A DNA stretch of 64,000 bases from Pinibacter soli (GTDB taxonomy: Bacteria > Bacteroidota > Bacteroidia > Chitinophagales > Chitinophagaceae). Positions within the stretch are counted from its first letter, which is position 1. The number at the start of each line of letters is the position of its first letter. Below, piece after piece: positions 3,278 through 25,430 of this stretch. The notes below the pieces were generated by a model. The model saw only the letters and a list, made by a program, of their open reading frames with translations. It did not search any database and had not been told where the DNA came from. Position numbers and translations under genes: made by a program. The stretch covers positions 112,660 to 176,659 of the forward strand of contig NZ_JASBRG010000006.1 in the NCBI RefSeq assembly GCF_029961145.1, given 5' to 3'.

Positions 3278-4348
3278 TTATCCCTTTTTCGTTGCAAAAT
3301 CTTTTATAAGACCGCATAGCGCTTGTACGCTTTCGAGAGGCAAAGCGTTGTACAGTGATGCACGGAAACCTCCAACACTTCTGTGGCCCTTTACACCGTA
3401 CATGCCATTGTCTTTGCAGGTTTGCAAAAATGCTTTCTCTACTTCAGGATCAGATATGGTGAAAACAACGTTCATTTTGCTTCTGTCTTCTTTTGCCACC
3501 GGCAAATTGAACATTGGCAACGCATCCAAAGTATTGTAAAGCAAACTTGCTTTTTGATCGTTTATTTTTTCGATTGCAGCAACGCCACCGATTTTTTTCA
3601 ACCAGCGCAAAGTCAACATACAAACATATACTGCAAAAACAGGAGGTGTGTTAAGCATGGATCCATTGTCAATATGACTCTTGTAATCCATCATTGTCGG
3701 CAGTTTGCGACCCGCAAGACCCACAATGTTTTTATCGATCACCAGGATATTTACACCTGCCGCGCCGATATTTTTTTGTGCTCCGGCGTAAATCAACGAG
3801 AATTTGTTGAAGTCCATTACAGTGCTTAAGATATCACTGCTCATGTCTGCGATCAAAGGCACATTGGTTTGAGGAATGCTGTGCATTTCTGTTCCTTCAA
3901 TAGTATTGTTAGTTGTGTAATGGAAATAGCTTACATCACTTGGAATTTCATATCCTGTAGGAATGTAAGAGTAGTTTTTATCTTTTGAGCTGGCAACCAC
4001 ATTGACGTTGCCAAAGAGCTTTGCTTCTTTAATAGCCTTTGATCCCCACACCCCACAATCAAGGTATGCGGCAGTTTTGCCTTCGGCCAGCAAATTCATC
4101 GGGATCTGGAAGAATTGTGTGGACGCGCCACCGTGAAGGAAAAGTACTTCCTTATTCGAATCAAGGCTCATCAATTCTTTTAACAACGAAACGGCTTCAT
4201 TAAGAACACCTTCAAATAATGGAGTACGGTGACCGATTTCCAGGATGGAAAGACCGGTATTGTTGAAATCTAAAATTGCTTTTGAAGCTTCCTGAAAGAC
4301 TTCTTTAGGTAAAATAGATGGGCCCGCGTTAAAATTGTGCATTACCAT
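3278..4348 (-). CDS. serC: 3-phosphoserine/phosphohydroxythreonine aminotransferase
   Basis: This protein of about 356 residues is SerC, a PLP enzyme that converts 3-phosphohydroxypyruvate and glutamate to phosphoserine in serine synthesis (and acts in the PLP pathway in some species). Signature blocks are HNFNAGPSILPKEVF at the N-terminus, FLHGGASTQFFQIPMN, and the PLP-lysine region IYAGAQKNIGAAGVN. The C-terminal GHRSVGGFRASLYNA is typical. The ATG at 4348 gives the family-standard start; a second ATG six bases downstream is possible. serA is not adjacent; instead a DUF1015 gene follows on the same strand. Confidence 0.96.
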   Translation of the reverse strand: MVMHNFNAGPSILPKEVFQEASKAILDFNNTGLSILEIGHRTPLFEGVLNEAVSLLKELMSLDSNKEVLFLHGGASTQFFQIPMNLLAEGKTAAYLDCGVWGSKAIKEAKLFGNVNVVASSKDKNYSYIPTGYEIPSDVSYFHYTTNNTIEGTEMHSIPQTNVPLIADMSSDILSTVMDFNKFSLIYAGAQKNIGAAGVNILVIDKNIVGLAGRKLPTMMDYKSHIDNGSMLNTPPVFAVYVCMLTLRWLKKIGGVAAIEKINDQKASLLYNTLDALPMFNLPVAKEDRSKMNVVFTISDPEVEKAFLQTCKDNGMYGVKGHRSVGGFRASLYNALPLESVQALCGLIKDFATKKG

Positions 4349-12268: not shown

Positions 12269-13744
12269 ATGGCCGGGATCGATATTTCATTATTATTTAA
12301 CTCATCTTCTGCGATACAGATCATTCGTATGCGCAACGCTGCGTGGGTATTGCCATTTTTGTACGATGTTTTTAAAGAAAACAATGTGTTCTTTATTTCA
12401 GAGACAAAACTGGCTACTCATTTAGCGGAGACTCTTGCTTTGCATGTGGATGGAACCGAAGATCTGGAGGAAGCAAAAATTGAATTTGGTGAAGATGAGG
12501 AAAGCCGTGCCAGGAAATACCTGTTGAACTGGGTGCAAAAAAGATTGCTACAGGACTATCCTGACAGCGAAGGCAACACCCAGTATCAGTTAAGCGCCCA
12601 TACCGAAAAAATATTTCAATGGTTTCAAACGCTGGGACGAAGGGATTTTGTGGGGACAGAAAGCCGTTTCAAAATGCTCTTTTCATCTTTGCGTGACATC
12701 GTTGAAAAAACGGAAGACGACCGCACCGCTCGTTTAGAAGATCTGAAAAACAAACGTGCTGCTCTCGATAAAGAAATCCAACGGCTCGAACATGGCGCCA
12801 CTGTTGAAGTGTACAACAATGCGCAGGTACAGGAAAGGCTGGAACTCTTTACAAGATTGTGTTATGAACTGCTGAGCGATTTCCGTGAAGTGGAGGATAA
12901 TTTTAAGCAAATACACCGCTCGATCGTTGAGCATCACACGAGAGCGGAATTGAATAAAGGCGCAATTGTGGGTTATGCATTTGAAGCGTACGATGCGCTA
13001 CGCAATAGCGATCAGGGTAAAAGCTTTTACGCCTTCTGGGATTTTCTTATTTCCCGTGCCGGCCAGGAAGAGTGGCGCCTGCTTACAGAACAATTGCTCG
13101 ACCTGCTGTACGATAGAAATATAGAAGCGAACAACGAGTTTCTGCAAAACATAAAAACGCTCTTGCTGCAACAAGGGAAAAGCGTGTACGAAGCGAATGA
13201 TAAAATGGCGGAGAAGCTCAGCCGCATTATCACCGAAAAAGAAATTGCACGACATAAAAGATTACGCACGCAGATCAGCAACATTAAGGAACTGGTACTT
13301 GCGAATCAGCAGGAAGACGATATTCCCTGCGGCATTGCGGTGAGCGAACCAGTCAACATCAAGCTGATCATGGATCGCAAACTGAATTTGCAACAGAAAG
13401 CGCCATCAGTGGTTATTACACAACCCAACAATGCGGATGAACACATTGCAGACATTGAGCGCTTCAGCCGAATGATCAACACAAGTTTTATTGATAAAAA
13501 AAGGCTTTGGCAAAAAGTGGAAGATGTGTTGAAACAAAAACAAACAGCCACTTTAAAAGAAGTACTTGAAATAAGCGGCCTTGATAACGGCATACCGGAA
13601 GTTGTTTCCTATTACAGTTTTGTAAAGGACAAAAGCTCCCGGGTGCAAATTTTGGAAAACATGACGGAGCACATCAGCATAAATGAGGCGCAAACGAAGT
13701 TTATTGAAGTGCCGTATTTGTTGTTTAGCAGGAAAAGTGGCTGA
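12269..13744 (+). CDS. jetA: Wadjet defence protein JetA (DUF3375, MukF-like kleisin)
   Basis: This 491-residue protein fits the DUF3375 family, the kleisin subunit of Wadjet. Wadjet complexes are SMC-like machines that extrude and cleave small circular DNA and so restrict plasmid transformation. The protein begins with the winged-helix-like region (SSAIQIIRMRNAAWVLPFL), has a coiled coil around residues 150-180 (LKNKRAALDKEIQRLEHG), and ends in a second helical/winged-helix part (KQTATLKEVLEISGLDNGIPEVVSYY). Length matches type I JetA. It is followed not by jetB, as in canonical operons, but by an inverted Doc/HTH cassette only 29 bases downstream. The name is inferred from family plus the linked jetB, jetC and jetD. 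Confidence 0.92.
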   Translation: MAGIDISLLFNSSSAIQIIRMRNAAWVLPFLYDVFKENNVFFISETKLATHLAETLALHVDGTEDLEEAKIEFGEDEESRARKYLLNWVQKRLLQDYPDSEGNTQYQLSAHTEKIFQWFQTLGRRDFVGTESRFKMLFSSLRDIVEKTEDDRTARLEDLKNKRAALDKEIQRLEHGATVEVYNNAQVQERLELFTRLCYELLSDFREVEDNFKQIHRSIVEHHTRAELNKGAIVGYAFEAYDALRNSDQGKSFYAFWDFLISRAGQEEWRLLTEQLLDLLYDRNIEANNEFLQNIKTLLLQQGKSVYEANDKMAEKLSRIITEKEIARHKRLRTQISNIKELVLANQQEDDIPCGIAVSEPVNIKLIMDRKLNLQQKAPSVVITQPNNADEHIADIERFSRMINTSFIDKKRLWQKVEDVLKQKQTATLKEVLEISGLDNGIPEVVSYYSFVKDKSSRVQILENMTEHISINEAQTKFIEVPYLLFSRKSG

Positions 13745-13773: not shown

Positions 13774-14271
13774 CTATAGTTCCGAATATGAATCTTTATA
13801 AAAATCGGTTCCCATACTTAGTTGTTCGCAATCAGGACTTACTCGTTCCAGAGCATTTACAATTTTTAGCTTTAGTACTTCGCTATAGTCTTCTTCACTT
13901 ATGAGAGAAGTTACGATTTCTTGGAGCAATTCTTTATCAATAATATTGTCTGCGACAGTAACAGCAAGATTCTCCATTTCAATAATAAATTTATCTACAA
14001 GAAAATCAAGTCCATTAAGCTCGAGGAAGAATGCTCCCAATGCAATCGACGTTCTTTTATTGCCGTCGCTAAAAGCGTGAGATTTATTAAATGAAAATAT
14101 TAGATGCGTTAACTTTTCTTCAAACGTTGGATAGTAGACATCATTTTGAATATGTACAAGAATGCTGTCGATGTTACCAATGTCTTTTATGCCAGCTTTT
14201 CCCCCGGAAAGTAATATTATCTTATCGTGGATTTTAATAGCACAATCTGATGGGAAATAGTTAAAATCCAT
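13774..14271 (-). CDS. Doc-type Fic-fold toxin (death-on-curing family)
   Basis: A 165-residue Fic-fold protein. The catalytic loop reads HAFSDGNKRTSIALG at about residues 68-82. The second residue after GN is K, as in Doc (HxFxxxNKR), and not the G of AMPylating Fic proteins. Doc phosphorylates and inactivates EF-Tu, so a growth-arresting kinase activity is a reasonable inference. No Fic autoinhibitory (S/T)xxxE(G/N) helix was recognised. It lies one base downstream of an HTH gene on the minus strand, so the pair is surely co-transcribed. The gene sits inside the Wadjet operon, opposite to it, ending 29 bases after the jetA stop. Confidence 0.9.
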   Translation of the reverse strand: MDFNYFPSDCAIKIHDKIILLSGGKAGIKDIGNIDSILVHIQNDVYYPTFEEKLTHLIFSFNKSHAFSDGNKRTSIALGAFFLELNGLDFLVDKFIIEMENLAVTVADNIIDKELLQEIVTSLISEEDYSEVLKLKIVNALERVSPDCEQLSMGTDFYKDSYSEL

Positions 14272-14272
14272 T

Positions 14273-15367
14273 CTATCTGTCTTTTAGTCGTATAAAAACT
14301 TCTTTATTATCTTCCAATCGCTTTTCTAAATCCATGCTTCGTTCTCCTAAAAATTTTTCATAATCTTTGGAACTGACTTCATTGACATAATTCTTTAATT
14401 TTTCATGTAAAGCATCTCTGAACGCTAAGTCCCTACTTGCCATTAAACTTCTTGCTTTTTCACGCAATGGCACTAATGTTGGTTCAGTAATAATTTCATA
14501 TGTGGAAAATAAAATGTGGGCCTCTGATAAACTCAATTTTCTTTTCAGCTTATCAAATTCATTTTTTAAAAAACTTGCGAAACCATTTTCATAACCTGCG
14601 ATTAGATCTAAAACCTCAGAATACATTGTGCTTCTTACGCTTTCTTTTGCATCTAATTTCAGTATTTGCCGGTATTCCTTCGCGTTTTCTTTGAAAATGC
14701 TTTTATAGATTTTGTCTGTGAGCTGACTGTATTTGAATTTATTTTCAGCAATGTAATAGTCCAAAGCATTTGTAAATTCCTGTCTGTAATTGTATTCCCG
14801 AATTGCACTGGGCACAAACTCCTCTTCTCTTTGATTAATGAATTTTGTATTCCCTCCAAGCTTTTTGTTTAATACATCAATTACAATATCTAAAATTGCA
14901 GAACGTAGTTTTTGTGCTTTTTTCGAGCCTGTTAACAACATTCCAAGGTTCAAAAATGCTTTATAGGTAAAAACCGATAGTTGGGGTGTTTTAGCCAAAC
15001 TATCTAATTCATTTTCAAACAGTTGGACTATGTTACCGACATGGATGTCGGTAACATCCCCGTTTTTCTTTGTAACTCTCACAAAATCAATGACTTTCTC
15101 TTTGAAATCTTTAAGCTTTGAACCAAAATAGACCTCATAGCCACTTTGCACCAATTCTTCTTTATTGCTCTCTATGATTCTTTCAATTGTTCTTATATCT
15201 ACTTCAAAGTAATCAGCGACTTGTTGTTTGGTAAAACGAAACTTTCCCTCGTGCTTAAACCCATAAAATCCCACCTGCTCGTAAACTTCCCGTATAGCAA
15301 AATTGTTATTTAATATATTTTTTCTGTCTAAACTGGAATTAGTCAAGTCTTTTGCCATGTTCTGCAA
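14273..15367 (-). CDS. Helix-turn-helix DNA-binding protein paired with a Doc toxin
   Basis: A 364-residue protein (361 if the ATG at 15358 is used). Near residues 45-70 it has a helix-turn-helix of the form FTKQQVADYFEVDIRTIERI, which suggests DNA binding. The rest is mostly helical and charged, with no catalytic motif I recognise. Similar DNA-binding proteins next to death-on-curing toxins are annotated in Bacteroidota, sometimes as RhuM-like. It is not a Phd-type antitoxin by size or sequence. One base separates its stop from the Doc start, so it could be the antitoxin or regulator of that toxin. About 200 bases upstream lies jetB in divergent orientation, so it could also control jetBCD. 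Those roles are inference. Confidence 0.75.
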   Translation of the reverse strand: MQNMAKDLTNSSLDRKNILNNNFAIREVYEQVGFYGFKHEGKFRFTKQQVADYFEVDIRTIERIIESNKEELVQSGYEVYFGSKLKDFKEKVIDFVRVTKKNGDVTDIHVGNIVQLFENELDSLAKTPQLSVFTYKAFLNLGMLLTGSKKAQKLRSAILDIVIDVLNKKLGGNTKFINQREEEFVPSAIREYNYRQEFTNALDYYIAENKFKYSQLTDKIYKSIFKENAKEYRQILKLDAKESVRSTMYSEVLDLIAGYENGFASFLKNEFDKLKRKLSLSEAHILFSTYEIITEPTLVPLREKARSLMASRDLAFRDALHEKLKNYVNEVSSKDYEKFLGERSMDLEKRLEDNKEVFIRLKDR

Positions 15368-19572: not shown

Positions 19573-20715
19573 ATGACAACGCAGCAATATATCTCGCAAC
19601 TTGAAAAGGCATACACCAACTATCTTGCTGACGTTGTATTGAACAAACCATTTGAACCGATTATTTTATGGGGCGGGAAAAACAAGCCTTCCACAACTGT
19701 CGAGTTGCACGATAACACTAAACAATTTCAGCAATTTGAGAAAACAGACACAAAGCCTGGTTGGACGATAGAATGGGAAGAATGGAATAGCAAGAAGTTT
19801 GGGAGACAACAATGGCCCAAAAATATTTCTTTGCTACAGGAAACCGACTTGCTGTTTTTGCTGAAAAAGGAAAGAGAAATTGAGTCATTCAAATTGATCG
19901 TTAAAATGTTGGTCGAATGGAAATCCGATCTGCGACAATGGATTTCCCAAAATGTAAAAGATATTTTACCACTAAAAGAAGTTTGGCCTTCGATAACGAA
20001 AGTGGTGGATTATTTGCTGGCAAACGATGTAAGAGAATACTATTTGCGAAGTATTCCGGTACCGGTGCATACAAAGTTTATCGAAAAAAATGAGTGGTTA
20101 ATCGTGAGTTTGCTTCAGAATTTGTCACCTGAAAAATTTTCTCCTTCAACGTCCGATATAGACAGTCTTTTGCAGTTGCGCAAAAAGCCGTTTTTGTTCA
20201 CTGCTCGTTGGTTGGATAGAGAATGCGCAAAAGAATTTACCAGCAACATGATGGTGTTTGGGATTATAACAAATGATCTTCGCGTTGCAAATTGGCGAGT
20301 TGATAGAATTATTCTCACCGAAAATGAAACATCACTCTTTCAATTGCCTGAGTTAAGCAACACGCTTGCATTGTGTAGCAATGGAAAGACGGTTTCTTTG
20401 TTTAAGGACATTTCTTTGTTCGCGAACAACAACCTATTTTATTGGGGTGATCTTGATGAGGATGGTTTTTTTATTTTGAATCATTTGCGGCAGTATTATC
20501 CACATGCTCAAAGTATAATGATGGACGAGGCGACGATCGAGCTGCACGAAAAGGAAATAACAATCCAGCCCGCTAAATACAAAAACATGGACATGGCCGG
20601 GCTGCAAACTCACGAGCTTGCCGCCTACAAAATACTGGCTGGAAGAAACGGCCGTTTAGAACAGGAGCAACTACAGCATCTTTACATTAACAATTGCCTG
20701 ACAGCATTAAAGTAG
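19573..20715 (+). CDS. jetD: Wadjet defence nuclease JetD (DUF3322 + DUF2220 Toprim)
   Basis: A 380-residue protein with an N-terminal DUF3322 region (QLEKAYTNYLADVVLNKP ... GWTIEWEEWNSKKFGRQ) and a C-terminal DUF2220 Toprim-like domain. Its metal-binding motif is YWGDLDEDGFFILN at about residues 290-303, and the conserved tail LQTHELAAYKILAG is present. JetD is the topoisomerase VI/Spo11-like nuclease that cuts the trapped circular DNA. The order jetB-jetC-jetD is canonical. The ATG at 19573 is followed by a short amphipathic helix typical of the family. The 125 bases after its stop show no strong terminator. Confidence 0.93.
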   Translation: MTTQQYISQLEKAYTNYLADVVLNKPFEPIILWGGKNKPSTTVELHDNTKQFQQFEKTDTKPGWTIEWEEWNSKKFGRQQWPKNISLLQETDLLFLLKKEREIESFKLIVKMLVEWKSDLRQWISQNVKDILPLKEVWPSITKVVDYLLANDVREYYLRSIPVPVHTKFIEKNEWLIVSLLQNLSPEKFSPSTSDIDSLLQLRKKPFLFTARWLDRECAKEFTSNMMVFGIITNDLRVANWRVDRIILTENETSLFQLPELSNTLALCSNGKTVSLFKDISLFANNNLFYWGDLDEDGFFILNHLRQYYPHAQSIMMDEATIELHEKEITIQPAKYKNMDMAGLQTHELAAYKILAGRNGRLEQEQLQHLYINNCLTALK

Positions 20716-20840
20716 CTTCGAAAGAGTATCTACCTGTTTGTAATCAACGCCCAATTCCTTAATAAAGATTAACCAACAAAATGTTTTCTTTCGTTCATAA
20801 AGATTCTATTTTAGTGTAAGGAACCTAACCTCTAAACAAC

Positions 20841-21602
20841 ATGAATTTCGGTCCTAACTTAAACTACATCTACTACATAACGGTAGGGTTGCAAGCGATA
20901 TGCGCATTGCATTGCATTCGCAAGGGCAATCAGAATAAATGGTTGTACATAATTATTTTCCTGCCGATCATCGGAAGCCTTATTTATTTCTTCGGTGAAA
21001 TATTTACAAAGGGCCAGTTAAGAAACGTGCAATCCGGCATGGACGCTGTGATACAGCCAACCGGCAGTATAAGAAGGCTGGAAGAGCAATTGAAATTTAC
21101 CGACACATTTGATAACCGAGTAGCGCTCGCAGATGCATATTTAGCAACGGGGCAAACTGAAAAAGCAATCGAGCTGTATGAAAGGAGCCACACAGGTGTT
21201 TTTACGGAAAATGAACATTTGCTTTCACAAATGATAGTTGCCTATTATAAGGCACACCGCGATGAAGACATTATTCCGCTTGCACAAAAACTTTATAAGT
21301 CGCCACAGTTCCCAAGATCTCAAGCACACCTGTTATATGCAATTGCTCTTGCTAATACGGGAAAGTCAGCGCTTGCGGAGAAAGAGTTTAAAACAATGAG
21401 CAGCCGTTTTTCGTGTTTTGAGCAACGGTATAATTACGGGTTGTTTTTAATTAAGCAAGGCCGCGAGGAAGAAGCAGAAAGTATAGTTAGTGAAATGCTG
21501 GGCGAAGCGAGTCATTTAAGTTCACGGGAAAGAAGGGACAGCAGGCAATGGTTTGCTGCAGCGAAAGACGCTTTGAAAAGTTTGGAGAAAGCGACATCCT
21601 AA
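20841..21602 (+). CDS. PLDc_N-like membrane protein with TPR repeats
   Basis: A 253-residue protein. Its first 50 residues hold two membrane helices with the arrangement NKWLYIIIFLPIIGSLIYFF, resembling the phospholipase-D-nuclease N-terminal (PLDc_N) membrane domain, with no nuclease attached. The rest is TPR-like helical repeats: VALADAYLATGQTEKAIELYE, LYAIALANTGKSALAEKEF and YNYGLFLIKQGREEEAESIV. It would be a membrane scaffold exposing TPRs to the cytoplasm. It lies between Wadjet and the KAP triplet on the same strand, with gaps of 125 and 240 bases. Membership in either unit is uncertain. Confidence 0.75.
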   Translation: MNFGPNLNYIYYITVGLQAICALHCIRKGNQNKWLYIIIFLPIIGSLIYFFGEIFTKGQLRNVQSGMDAVIQPTGSIRRLEEQLKFTDTFDNRVALADAYLATGQTEKAIELYERSHTGVFTENEHLLSQMIVAYYKAHRDEDIIPLAQKLYKSPQFPRSQAHLLYAIALANTGKSALAEKEFKTMSSRFSCFEQRYNYGLFLIKQGREEEAESIVSEMLGEASHLSSRERRDSRQWFAAAKDALKSLEKATS

Positions 21603-21842
21603 ACAGAAAGAATAATTTTATAAAGCAGCGAACAATTTGCAGCTTTTTTGTTTTAGTAAATGTGAGCTCTTATTTCATAATAATTGAAGCTGAAGCTTGT
21701 AAATAAAAACTTTATTTGCAATATTTACTTCAGGACCTTTTACACACTTACCTCGCAACTATAAAGAGTATATCATGATTAACAACCTGAAAATTTCCGG
21801 GCTGTTAATAATTGACTAACCAATAGTTAAAACATACTCTTG

Positions 21843-22715
21843 ATGGAAGCTCCCTCGCATGTCAATACTGAATCGACCCTTCAACAGAAAGTAGAAAGTT
21901 ATAAAAACTTAAGCGTTCTCTTGAAATGGCTGGCAAGATGCATACTGCTGCTCGCGATCCTTTATGCCATTCTTCCTTTTCTTGATAAGGGTGCACACTA
22001 TAAATCACTGGATAACAAGATGGTAATTGGCTATGCTATCGCCGCAAATTCCTCAGGTACCTTAATTGCATTTTCGACCTATGATCAAAAAGATTCTGTA
22101 AGCTCTATTCTGGTCAGTTCAGACAGTGGAAAACACTTTGAACAAATTGGGGGGCCGTGGAAGAATTATAGCATAAACAAAATATCTGTTGCTCCAGATG
22201 ACCAATCCATAGTTGCCTATGGCGATGGCCGCGATATTTACATAAAGCCAGCAGGAAAAGGAGTTGACAGTTTTGTTTCAATTCACATAGCCGCGGGCTT
22301 GCCTTATCCCGTCATTTATGGTTATTCCTTTGTTCCACAAACAGACTCTGTTTATTTTTATTGCATCAACGGCAATCTCGTCGGACTCGACTATAAGAAG
22401 TGTGACTCCTTTATTGTTGGGCATCTTCACAATATTGGAACTATTAGCTCCATGAGTATCAACACTCAAAAGCAGATTGCTTTATCAGGAATTACTACAG
22501 ATGTATCAGACTATGAACAAAAATTGATAGTTGACAACTACTTCGATAGGGTTGATCGCCACGCATCCGCTGACTTTAAGGGACGGACACCAATCAAAGA
22601 TAGCATCAAATATTTCGATGCCACTGCAGCTATACTTGAGGACACGATGGTAAAAGTTAAGGTTGATAGTCCTGTTGTAAATAAAGATTCAATGGAAGGT
22701 TATTATAAAAAGTAA
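21843..22715 (+). CDS. Membrane-anchored propeller-like protein, first gene of the KAP triplet
   Basis: A 290-residue protein with a short cytoplasmic N-terminus, one membrane helix at about residues 31-50 (ARCILLLAILYAILPFL), and a beta-rich extracytoplasmic part. The text SILVSSDSGKHFEQIGGPW looks like a BNR/Asp-box motif, and VIGYAIAANSSGTLIAFST and ISVAPDDQSIVAYGDG look like propeller blades, so a partial beta-propeller is likely. The ATG at 21843 is preceded by an in-frame TTG. Six bases separate its stop from the next gene, so it is the first of a three-gene unit. Function unknown; surface sensing is only a guess. Confidence 0.75.
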   Translation: MEAPSHVNTESTLQQKVESYKNLSVLLKWLARCILLLAILYAILPFLDKGAHYKSLDNKMVIGYAIAANSSGTLIAFSTYDQKDSVSSILVSSDSGKHFEQIGGPWKNYSINKISVAPDDQSIVAYGDGRDIYIKPAGKGVDSFVSIHIAAGLPYPVIYGYSFVPQTDSVYFYCINGNLVGLDYKKCDSFIVGHLHNIGTISSMSINTQKQIALSGITTDVSDYEQKLIVDNYFDRVDRHASADFKGRTPIKDSIKYFDATAAILEDTMVKVKVDSPVVNKDSMEGYYKK

Positions 22716-22721
22716 TAAAAC

Positions 22722-24500
22722 ATGGGAATGAAAAAAATATTCATGTGTTTTTTGTGTATTGGCTTTGCTTCAACAATGGCTCAAAGGTCAATATTATATC
22801 CCGGATATTTTAGGGCATACGACTTGTATTGGGATTTGGATACAACCTCATTTCCGCAACAGCTGATGGTTACAGGTGATTACAGTGAAGACTTCGATAC
22901 GGCCTATTATACAATGATTCAACGGACCATAAAAGAGACTCGCCCTAACGCCGATACCGGATGGTCGGGAAATACAGAATCAAGTTTGTACATAGATAAT
23001 GGCTTTGTAAAATACTATAATCAACTTGATCATTTTAGGGTAGGGTTTTTTAACGGCATGTCTCATTATTACACCTTTAGCAACGACCTCAACTACATTT
23101 TCACTTTCAATCCCAACGTTGCCCATGCGCTTTACCTCGATTCAATTAAGCAAGCAGATGCAATTAATGATCTTGTCATTTGTAAAGACTCGCTACTTTA
23201 TTGCTCCGTTTCAAATAATCATATCAATTATATCGTGCGGAAAAAAGGATCACGCGGAGGGTGGGAAACACTTCCTGTAGTAGTTCCGAATAAAAGCGCA
23301 CTAGATAATGTCGCAAGAATTGTTTTCGCGGTTATAGTAGTGCTTTCATTATTTGGCGGGATATTATTTTTTGTCCGCTGGAAAAAAGCACAGGAAATAA
23401 AAGGTTTTCTCAAGAAAGCGCGGCCGGATGCGAACGACCTTAAACTGGCAGCTGATAAACCTTTGGAGTATGATCAAATAAAAAACAAGGACACAAAGGC
23501 GGCTATTGATGCCATGGTAGATGTAATAAAAAACAGGAATACTCCTTTGCCGATGACCATTGCAATTAATGGGGCCTGGGGAAGTGGTAAGTCTACCATC
23601 ATGAATTGTATAAGAGAAAAGCTGGATGGCGACGATCAGGAACGATTTATTACAACATGGTTCAATGCCTGGCACCAGCAAACGGAAAGCAGCTTACTGG
23701 ATGCGTTCTTGTTAAAAGTGATAAACCGTTATGAAAAGCCTTTCTACAAAAAAAACGGATTAAAAGCACGGCTTGCATTTGTTAGATTCAGGGCGCAGCT
23801 TGCTGTATCGCGGTTTATCAAATGGCCGTTTTATACGCAGGCATTGTCAGGGTTTGCGCTTGGGTTTCTTATTGTATCAGTTCTTATAATCATCATTAAT
23901 CTCTACGGCTGGGTCGACTCTCCTGTTCTTGAAAACGCCGGGCCTCTCAACATTAATTTGACCTACTTTTTTAAAGACAATCATTTCACTTCCATTATCG
24001 CTATAGTTATTCCCATACTCAGTTTTTTCTTTCTGAAGTCTGAATCCAACCCAACAATAGGCGCATTTCTTAATGTGATGTACAAGAAAACCTTTTTGGT
24101 AGAGGTTGAAAAAAACACACCCGACCTGCGGGAAAAATTCAGAGCTCAATATTGGGAAATTATGGAGGCCGTAGGCGACCGTGTGCTGGTTGTGTTTATT
24201 GATGACATGGATAGAGTGAACGGTGACAAGATATTTGAAATGCTGGAGGCCATCAACTTCATTGGAGATATAACATCCCGTCCGGATGATCAGGAAAGCA
24301 ACAGCTTAAAAACTGTTTTTGTGTTAGGGCTTTATATTGACCAGGTCGCAGAGCATTTGGGTATTTTTTTACAAAAAGAAAATGCCTACAAAAATGAGGA
24401 ACCATTTAGCCGGGAAGAAGCAAAAACACTTGGGAAAAGATATATAGAGAAAATGGTGCAGTTGAATGTGCCGGTTCCGTTAACTAAAGACGATGTGTAA
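22722..24500 (+). CDS. KAP-family P-loop NTPase with secreted N-terminal domain
   Basis: A 592-residue protein. Residues 1-20 look like a signal peptide (second ATG at 22728: MKKIFMCFLCIGFASTMAQ). A unique extracytoplasmic domain spans about 25-195, then a membrane helix at 198-221 (IVFAVIVVLSLFGGILFF). A KAP NTPase core follows: Walker A GAWGSGKST near residue 284, WFNAWHQQ near 313, a membrane hairpin at about 372-440 between Walker A and B (a KAP hallmark), Walker B VLVVFIDDMDRV near 488, and VFVLGLYIDQVAEHLG. The chain stops just after YIEKMVQLNVPVPL, where KAP proteins normally continue into a C-terminal helical part. That part appears in the next gene. KAP proteins include PifA, an F-plasmid phage-exclusion protein. 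Confidence 0.85.
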   Translation: MGMKKIFMCFLCIGFASTMAQRSILYPGYFRAYDLYWDLDTTSFPQQLMVTGDYSEDFDTAYYTMIQRTIKETRPNADTGWSGNTESSLYIDNGFVKYYNQLDHFRVGFFNGMSHYYTFSNDLNYIFTFNPNVAHALYLDSIKQADAINDLVICKDSLLYCSVSNNHINYIVRKKGSRGGWETLPVVVPNKSALDNVARIVFAVIVVLSLFGGILFFVRWKKAQEIKGFLKKARPDANDLKLAADKPLEYDQIKNKDTKAAIDAMVDVIKNRNTPLPMTIAINGAWGSGKSTIMNCIREKLDGDDQERFITTWFNAWHQQTESSLLDAFLLKVINRYEKPFYKKNGLKARLAFVRFRAQLAVSRFIKWPFYTQALSGFALGFLIVSVLIIIINLYGWVDSPVLENAGPLNINLTYFFKDNHFTSIIAIVIPILSFFFLKSESNPTIGAFLNVMYKKTFLVEVEKNTPDLREKFRAQYWEIMEAVGDRVLVVFIDDMDRVNGDKIFEMLEAINFIGDITSRPDDQESNSLKTVFVLGLYIDQVAEHLGIFLQKENAYKNEEPFSREEAKTLGKRYIEKMVQLNVPVPLTKDDV

Positions 24501-24506
24501 ATAAAA

Positions 24507-25382
24507 ATGGCAAACAGAAATAAATATATTATTTGGCCGTATATCATTTCATTAACAATGTTTCTTGGAGGTATTGTAGCGGCCATATACCTGGTTCACA
24601 ACCTACGGCCTTCGAAACCCGTGGAAGAGGCCGCTGCATCGAAGAATTCAAAGGACACGACGTATGTAAAATTGCTTAACCCCGGCTTTGCGGAGACAGC
24701 GTTGGCTGATACAGTTCGCAGAAAGAATGCTACCACGAGTTTGACAATCCCGCCGGTTAAAATTGAAACCCCCACATATTCAACAAGTGGCAAATTAAAG
24801 CTTCCGCGACAAACAGGACGATGGCTCCTGCCAAACAATCCCAATTCGATTGATATTAAGTCGATCTCAGATGGTGCGACCGACAATCTTAACATTACAT
24901 ACGCGTCAAAAAGATTGACATCCATATACGTTGGCTTTGGCATTATTGCCGGCTTGTTTCTTATGTTGCTGACATTTTTTTCAAGGGAAGAAAGCCTGGA
25001 AAATGCAACGGTAACAGATATAGACCCTGAAGACTTGCAGGAATTATTCAATCAATTCAAACCACAAATAGCGCAATTGAGAAATCCGAGAAAGATCTTG
25101 CGCTTTAAGAATATGGTAAAATACCACTACTATTTTTTGAAGAAAGGCGGTTTGAATAACACTGAAAATCTTCGAAAGATGATGTGGATACTAATCGGTA
25201 TCCAGGATGATCCTTCATTGACCAGCATTGAAAAAGTCAGCTCTGAATCTCTCGGGGATTCCCGCTGGTTCTATGATAGGATCAAAGACAAGGATTGGTT
25301 TTCCAAAGCTGCCATTAACCCATCTAAAGACGATGCTTTATTAATGACTATTCTTAAACTAAATGTTGATATGGGAGTATGA
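24507..25382 (+). CDS. Two-helix membrane protein carrying the KAP C-terminal-like region
   Basis: A 291-residue protein with a membrane helix at about residues 9-31, an extracytoplasmic loop of about 105 residues rich in Pro, Thr and Lys, and a second helix at about 138-158 (YVGFGIIAGLFLMLLTFF). The cytoplasmic tail contains LRNPRKILRFKNMVKYHYYF (near residue 192), which resembles the 'NPR.I.RF.N' segment that closes KAP NTPases. I read it as the missing C-terminal part of the preceding KAP gene, carried on a separate membrane anchor. Six bases separate the two genes. The gene has its own ATG and membrane helix, so this is not a simple frameshift. The assignment is inference. Confidence 0.7.
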   Translation: MANRNKYIIWPYIISLTMFLGGIVAAIYLVHNLRPSKPVEEAAASKNSKDTTYVKLLNPGFAETALADTVRRKNATTSLTIPPVKIETPTYSTSGKLKLPRQTGRWLLPNNPNSIDIKSISDGATDNLNITYASKRLTSIYVGFGIIAGLFLMLLTFFSREESLENATVTDIDPEDLQELFNQFKPQIAQLRNPRKILRFKNMVKYHYYFLKKGGLNNTENLRKMMWILIGIQDDPSLTSIEKVSSESLGDSRWFYDRIKDKDWFSKAAINPSKDDALLMTILKLNVDMGV

Positions 25383-25409
25383 TTTTTCAAACGTAATAAA
25401 ACAAAAATA

Positions 25410-25430
25410 CCCGCTAGTGCGGGCATTTTG
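25410..25430 (+). terminator. Terminator-like hairpin after the KAP triplet
   Basis: CCCGC and GCGGG around a TAGT loop, followed by CATTTTG. It sits 28 bases after the last KAP-triplet stop codon. The T run is short, so it may be weak. Confidence 0.55.

Follow-up and report, generated by a model that had tools for sequence, protein, structure and literature searches.

Tmn, an anti-phage system, is a KAP NTPase with two transmembrane (TM) domains, and its precise mechanism has been called unexplored (PMC11846954). The putative antigen sensors that retroelements diversify also include KAP NTPases (PMC10907252). Here we describe a triplet of membrane-protein genes in Pinibacter soli, located at 21843-25382 of the stretch of DNA that we analyzed, hereafter the window (64,000 nt; NZ_JASBRG010000006.1, positions 112,660-176,659 of the forward strand). 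AAA+-like and KAP NTPases usually have core and lid on one chain. In the triplet, genes 2 and 3 very probably encode one such NTPase on two chains. Gene 1 (21843-22715, + strand, 290 aa) encodes a membrane anchor and an extracytoplasmic domain; gene 2 (22722-24500, + strand, 592 aa) encodes a membrane KAP NTPase core that ends short of the C-terminal NPR segment; and gene 3 (24507-25382, + strand, 291 aa) encodes a TM-outside-TM protein with a cytoplasmic tail in which the NPR segment is found. All three genes are intact, lie in one shared reading frame on the + strand and are separated by 6-base gaps; re-reading of the sequence confirmed these coordinates, sizes and gaps as first reported.

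The assignment of gene 2 to the KAP family was upheld by a Pfam profile search, in which it matched PF07693 (KAP NTPase) with 75 bits (E 8.2e-21; gathering score 20) over profile positions 4-188 of 293. Both Walker A (GAWGSGKS, 23571-23594, + strand, residues 284-291) and Walker B (VVFIDDMDR, 24189-24215, + strand, residues 490-498) are intact, and gene 2 is the sole PF07693 match of the whole genome at E 0.001. Gene 2 also scored above the cut-off of YobI-ATPase (PF20693; 31.5 bits versus 27) over the same stretch, which we take as an overlap of related models. Hydropathy, by which TM segments were called throughout, placed segments at residues 200-218, 374-392 and 422-440, the latter two forming a pair inserted between Walker A and Walker B; Aravind and colleagues reportedly noted in 2004 that some KAP members have TM helices inserted in the P-loop domain. 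The start of the protein reads to us as signal-peptide-like, and its extracytoplasmic domain covers about residues 21-195.

An AlphaFold model of the read-through of genes 2 and 3 (6 rows in the input) had a mean predicted local distance difference test score (pLDDT) of 52.5, with a good core and a poor gene 3 part. In the core, 10-residue blocks mostly scored 74-93 over residues 251-320 and 481-590, and fell to 58-69 in places. Modeling of the external part of gene 2, together with that of gene 1, gave a pLDDT of 31.5 and no usable fold. A fold search with model residues 239-591 indicated that the nearest solved fold was RdrA of RADAR (8hr8_F; Z 18.4, 232 residues, root-mean-square deviation 3.4, 16% identity); behind it ranked further RdrA entries and ORC/Cdc6-type AAA+ proteins at Z 15.6 and below. 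Most of these alignments ended near residue 591, which is where gene 2 ends. When solved structures were searched by sequence, gene 2 gave no match and profile A1 gave weak matches, the best being 8fnu_A at E 0.029.

What gene 2 lacks is the end of the domain. Judged from intact single-chain KAP proteins (L046, L055), the PF07693 model ends just past the NPR segment, and this segment is absent from gene 2 and present on gene 3 instead (NPRKILRF, 25083-25106, + strand, residues 193-200). A recognizable PR segment follows Walker B on the same chain in 23 of 84 KAP frames at other loci (counted with repeats and by strict patterns); in the 17 frames remaining after thinning it lies 109-184 residues past Walker B, with the exception of one protein described below (P0006, 735 residues), and gene 2 continues for only about 100 residues beyond Walker B. 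In gene 3, TM segments at residues 12-30 and 140-158 enclose an extracytoplasmic part (residues 31-139), and nothing in the protein scored above cut-off in Pfam. The gene 2 domain alone reached profile positions 4-181 with 77.7 bits. Joined to the gene 3 tail, with the membrane excursion removed, it matched positions 4-291 of 293 with 86.1 bits (+8.4), whereas with the reversed tail, our single control, it scored 77.4 bits over positions 4-231 and the match still ended inside gene 2. The reach of gene 2 into the profile is position 181-188, or 231-239 when more sequence stands behind it.

Single-chain relatives of the same layout were found in a Nevskia sp. metagenome-assembled genome (MAG), which encodes two such proteins: P0005 (L003:2-3109), whose 5' end is open at the contig end, and P0006 (L066:3320-7486), which was read from behind a masked stretch. 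Both are ordered as BNR/YCF48-type repeats, TM, KAP core with TM pair, TM, outside domain, TM and TPREVKRF or TPRELRRF, and their KAP parts are 24-27% identical to that of the triplet. The three window genes appear to match, in order, the parts of one Nevskia protein, although the correspondence is one of position and not of sequence where gene 1 and the outside domain of gene 2 are concerned. In both relatives the chain leaves and re-enters the membrane between core and NPR segment, and the gene cut falls at this excursion. In two MAFFT modes, gene 3 lined up with both Nevskia proteins at its last TM segment and its PRxxxRF segment (alignments A4 and A5 put the NPR segment wrongly and were not used), and when gene 3 was tested against them its score was reached by 7 of 2000 shuffles for one protein, 151 of 2000 for the other and 3 of 2000 for both together. 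The external part of P0006 that lies between its final two TM segments is large and YCF48-like (E 1.1e-24, best stretch 953-1030), whereas that of gene 3 has about 110 residues and belongs to no known family. P0006 has BNR/YCF48-type repeats in two external parts. The Nevskia protein matched only itself in 229 genomes of its class, and profile A1 matched, in 378 genomes of its phylum, the Nevskia protein and a KAP protein without a membrane excursion (G1049). The preliminary description had regarded full-length single-gene homologues in close relatives as a sign of a recent split; those of the same layout were found only in the distant Nevskia MAG, and at 24-27% identity they do not point to one.

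A second copy of the split was recovered from another genus. Searching 344 genomes of the same family gave four matching genomes at 1e-8, including P. soli itself, and in one of these (G1259, contig C380) the end of gene 2 is 40% identical over residues 513-589 (E 6e-12). The G1259 frame stops directly after VPIPYKKK, so that its boundary lies at the same place as in the window; 21 bases separate the stop from the next ATG, with a second in-frame stop within them, and a separate TM-outside-TM frame follows. This frame is cut by a 235-base element (L135 7968-8202) resembling a miniature inverted-repeat transposable element (MITE), with 26-base inverted ends that are 88% complementary. The tail after this insert carries SPRKIKRF and matched the KAP NPR-region profile with 25.4 bits (E 3.6e-7). 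Alignment A7 misplaced two of the three G1259 pieces and pairwise tests were used instead: the G1259 tail against the gene 3 tail scored 70 (shuffled mean 32.4, reached by 0 of 3000 shuffles), and the comparison of the two outside parts was not significant (233 of 3000 shuffles). The contig ends inside gene 2, leaving gene 1 and the front of gene 2 outside it, and no further match was found elsewhere in the G1259 genome. The ends of the MITE-like element resemble a stretch beside a transposase-like frame at the contig edge, which we presume from its resemblance to be an IS982-like transposase. The gene 2/3 cut is either older than the two genera, or moved from one to the other, or was made twice.

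Wider searches were run in genome samples that overlap, so that their counts are not additive. The two other genomes matching at 1e-8 were taken as holding general KAP proteins, one cut by a contig end (G1139) and the other seen in frame starts only (G1193). Gene 3 found only its own copy in 147 family genomes. Matches to gene 2 were present in 12 of 147 genomes and matches to the read-through in 21 of 395 (own genome included), and in the 20 regions from these searches that were checked by script for frames, TM segments and motifs the split layout was seen in none. Profile A1 matched in 23 of 345 genomes of the phylum, again including P. soli, and a scan of genome contigs with gene 2 returned one relative only. 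Conservation of the whole triplet in defense islands, raised in the preliminary description, did not emerge: across the 344 family genomes the sole other recognized copy is that of G1259, with its contig ending inside gene 2. Close copies of plasmid or phage origin were also sought and rejected, as the plasmid matches (8 and 11 records) were all below 60% identity with none covering 80% of the query, no phage match was obtained, and in viral contigs the KAP profile found 12 KAP loci but gene 3 found none.

The first gene of the triplet contributes an N-in anchor with one TM segment (residues 29-47), and its junction with gene 2 (TAA TAA AAC ATG) is in frame. It was originally called propeller-like. 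Weakly in favor of this, gene 1 has one Asp-box (SSDSGKHF, residues 92-99), a pattern present in 2 of 250 contig proteins with gene 1 included, and in comparisons with the two Nevskia propellers 96 and 228 of 2000 shuffles reached the score; no BNR/YCF48 profile matched. The protein had no match in Pfam, and at the thresholds applied neither gene 1 nor gene 3 had one in PADLOC, NCBIfam or PHROGs. With a pLDDT of 31.5 its external part yielded no usable fold, and judging from its sequence the domain is perhaps beta-propeller-like.

The triplet was first described as sitting directly beside Wadjet; in fact a TPR gene (20841-21602, + strand) lies between JetD and the triplet. The TPR protein has an N-terminal membrane segment and a weak PLDc_N match, and its membership in the system is uncertain given the 240-base gap to gene 1. 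TPR gene and triplet together form an accessory segment (20714-25393, no strand assigned) that is absent at this place from both congeners (G009 and G109), neither of which had a match to gene 2 or 3 elsewhere. Homology with G109 stops at 20713 and resumes at 25394, where G109 holds 207 bases without a blastn match; its DUF5723 gene follows directly after JetD, and the window is 4.7 kb longer there, a stretch that includes the triplet and the TPR gene. Downstream of gene 3, where the insert ends on the right, stands a hairpin (CCCGC-TAGT-GCGGG, 25410-25423, no strand assigned), common in sequence to the congeners, that we read as terminator-like.

The Wadjet system itself, of which the triplet is not a part, comprises JetB, JetC and JetD as recognized by PADLOC, and a DUF3375 protein at 12269-13744 that we take to be JetA. 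JetA, JetB and JetC occupy the same place in both congeners at 95-99% protein identity. JetD (19573-20715) is 72% identical to that of G109, compared with 96% for JetC; the 3' end of the operon either evolves faster or was exchanged along with the insert. G009 has no JetD frame of at least 90 aa at the Wadjet place and its DUF5723 gene comes directly after JetC (L130, about 3450-3762), so that its Wadjet seems to be without the fourth subunit here. Between JetA and JetB the window carries, on the minus strand at 13774-15367, a Fic protein together with another protein that match the PADLOC candidate pair PDC-M59 (E 5.7e-34 and 2.7e-97) and are absent there from both congeners. Because the triplet is absent at this place in two of two congeners, the Fic pair is present only in the window and JetD is variable, we regard the triplet as a probable accessory gain at a site of changing defense genes, a judgment based on two congeners; it may instead have been lost from both. 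Such a gain fits an immune role, although two congeners do not amount to enrichment.

Together, these data lead us to propose, with a probability of about 0.6, that a single membrane-embedded KAP (AAA+-like) NTPase is built from two chains, the products of genes 2 and 3, and couples sensing to switching. The nucleotide-binding core, with Walker A, Walker B and the next strand, is on gene 2, and the C-terminal NPR segment is on gene 3. The NPR tail would form the helical lid of the AAA+-like domain, a lid with a sensor-2-like arginine as we infer from the fold matches and from the general anatomy of AAA+ proteins; were the tail this lid, ATP turnover would need both chains together. A ligand or lesion in the envelope would be sensed by the outside parts of all three proteins, a role that we hold to be rather probable for the triplet, and the signal would alter the distance between lid and core and thereby switch the NTPase. 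Gene 3 may be translated by re-initiation at the gene 2 stop, yielding similar amounts of both chains. We are less sure of the output, which might be immune, directed against phage or plasmids as for the KAP proteins PifA, QatA, RdrA and Tmn; an immune function has, in our estimate, slightly less than an even chance. The most specific version, an envelope-sensing immune NTPase whose core and lid are separate membrane proteins, both having an external domain of their own, and whose inner active site is assembled or parted by an outside ligand, is unlikely as a whole.

Several observations weigh against this proposal. As to the split NTPase, completion of the profile by the gene 3 tail and the boundary common to a second genus both bear it out, yet the predicted model does not: the gene 3 tail scored block pLDDT values of 39-62 in the read-through model and docking on the core was not seen. 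When profiles were used to compare gene 3 with the two Nevskia tails, the probability came to just 3.5% (P 0.012), and the external part of gene 2 is unlike either Nevskia propeller, its score being reached by 1814 and 1149 of 2000 shuffles. The one further copy that turned up is broken. The membership of gene 1 in the system follows mainly from operon layout, and no defense-system cut-off or full-length profile was reached in PADLOC or NCBIfam. Finally, with a start-context matrix built from 222 contig genes, the starts of genes 1 and 2 scored 3.96 and 6.10, while that of gene 3 scored -5.49, which is like internal ATGs (1167 of 1556 score as high or higher). It is second lowest among 20 starts close to an upstream stop, two others being about as low. 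In our own reading this weak start reflects coupling to gene 2 termination; a degenerate start fits too.

The alternative that survives best accepts the two-chain KAP NTPase and gives it ordinary work in envelope signaling or scaffolding, such as responding to surface contact or envelope stress, in place of defense. It has a substantial minority chance, smaller than that of an immune function. The failure to reach any defense cut-off or full-length profile speaks for it, as do the surroundings of the Nevskia relatives, where P0006 has genes for malate synthase and isocitrate lyase to one side and two proteins without a Pfam match to the other, and where the neighbors of P0005 read as housekeeping genes. 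Kidins220, a eukaryotic KAP protein, is a signaling scaffold, which we also counted in its favor. The patchy presence of the triplet, its absence from both congeners and its insertion near Wadjet do not fit this account well, nor do the transposase-like frame and MITE-like element at the G1259 copy.

It is improbable that a nonsense mutation recently cut one KAP gene, leaving gene 3 as an untranslated or chance-translated end. The window alone might suggest it: only one stop separates the in-frame genes 2 and 3 (TAA ATA AAA ATG, 24498-24509, + strand, comprising gene 2 stop and gene 3 start), the gene 3 ATG has the context of an internal one, and by chance an ATG lies within three codons behind 6.5% of codons (3980 of 60842). 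However, three more in-frame junctions of 3 or 6 bases occur among 171 adjacent contig pairs, so the gene 2/3 layout is ordinary, and all three window frames are intact. We reject a recent nonsense split because the boundary recurs, with a junction of its own, in the other genus (G1259), and this recurrence largely refutes it.

Still less credible is that gene 3 is an unrelated membrane protein and NPRKILRF a chance match. The gene 3 tail alone is indeed weak, scoring 4.8 bits against a profile of 17 NPR-region segments (P0006 included), and higher scores were obtained by one shuffle in 300 and by one other frame among 500 of the contig. A chance match is nevertheless rejected, since the gene 3 tail completes PF07693 and the G1259 tail is related to it and matched the NPR-region profile in its own right; the MAFFT register with the Nevskia proteins also counts against it. 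Least probable of all is stop read-through giving some fused protein beside the two chains, for although the frames are joined in register, likewise in G1259, TAA followed by A is an efficient stop and G1259 has two in-frame stops between its frames.

If genes 2 and 3 do form one NTPase, the chain crosses the membrane between core and lid, and in two genera the gene is cut at just that point, which makes it a naturally split enzyme whose halves both bear external parts. Such a split lets one ask directly whether an envelope signal passes by joining core and lid, with a bearing on the working of membrane KAP proteins such as Tmn.

Within the open-licence literature we found no paper on a split KAP NTPase or on this triplet. 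A PADLOC scan of nine proteins, the triplet and six upstream genes, gave no entry named Tmn and none for RdrB. Gene 2 matched the PADLOC profile of PifA with 58.8 bits in two short stretches, the best covering 31-101 of 720 positions, and the QatA profile of NCBIfam (NF041923) with 58.9 bits against a cut-off of 600, likewise in short stretches only; neither is a full-length match. RdrA of RADAR has its core fold in common with gene 2, a shared fold that says nothing on function, and RdrA is not known to have a membrane part. The KAP family itself is known; what is new here is a membrane KAP NTPase variant with its core and NPR end on separate proteins, and a two-chain, receptor-like switch would differ from the named KAP defense systems. 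Among these, Tmn is likewise a KAP NTPase with two TM domains, which its description treats as a single protein (PMC11846954); by description, and by description only, the triplet stands apart from it.

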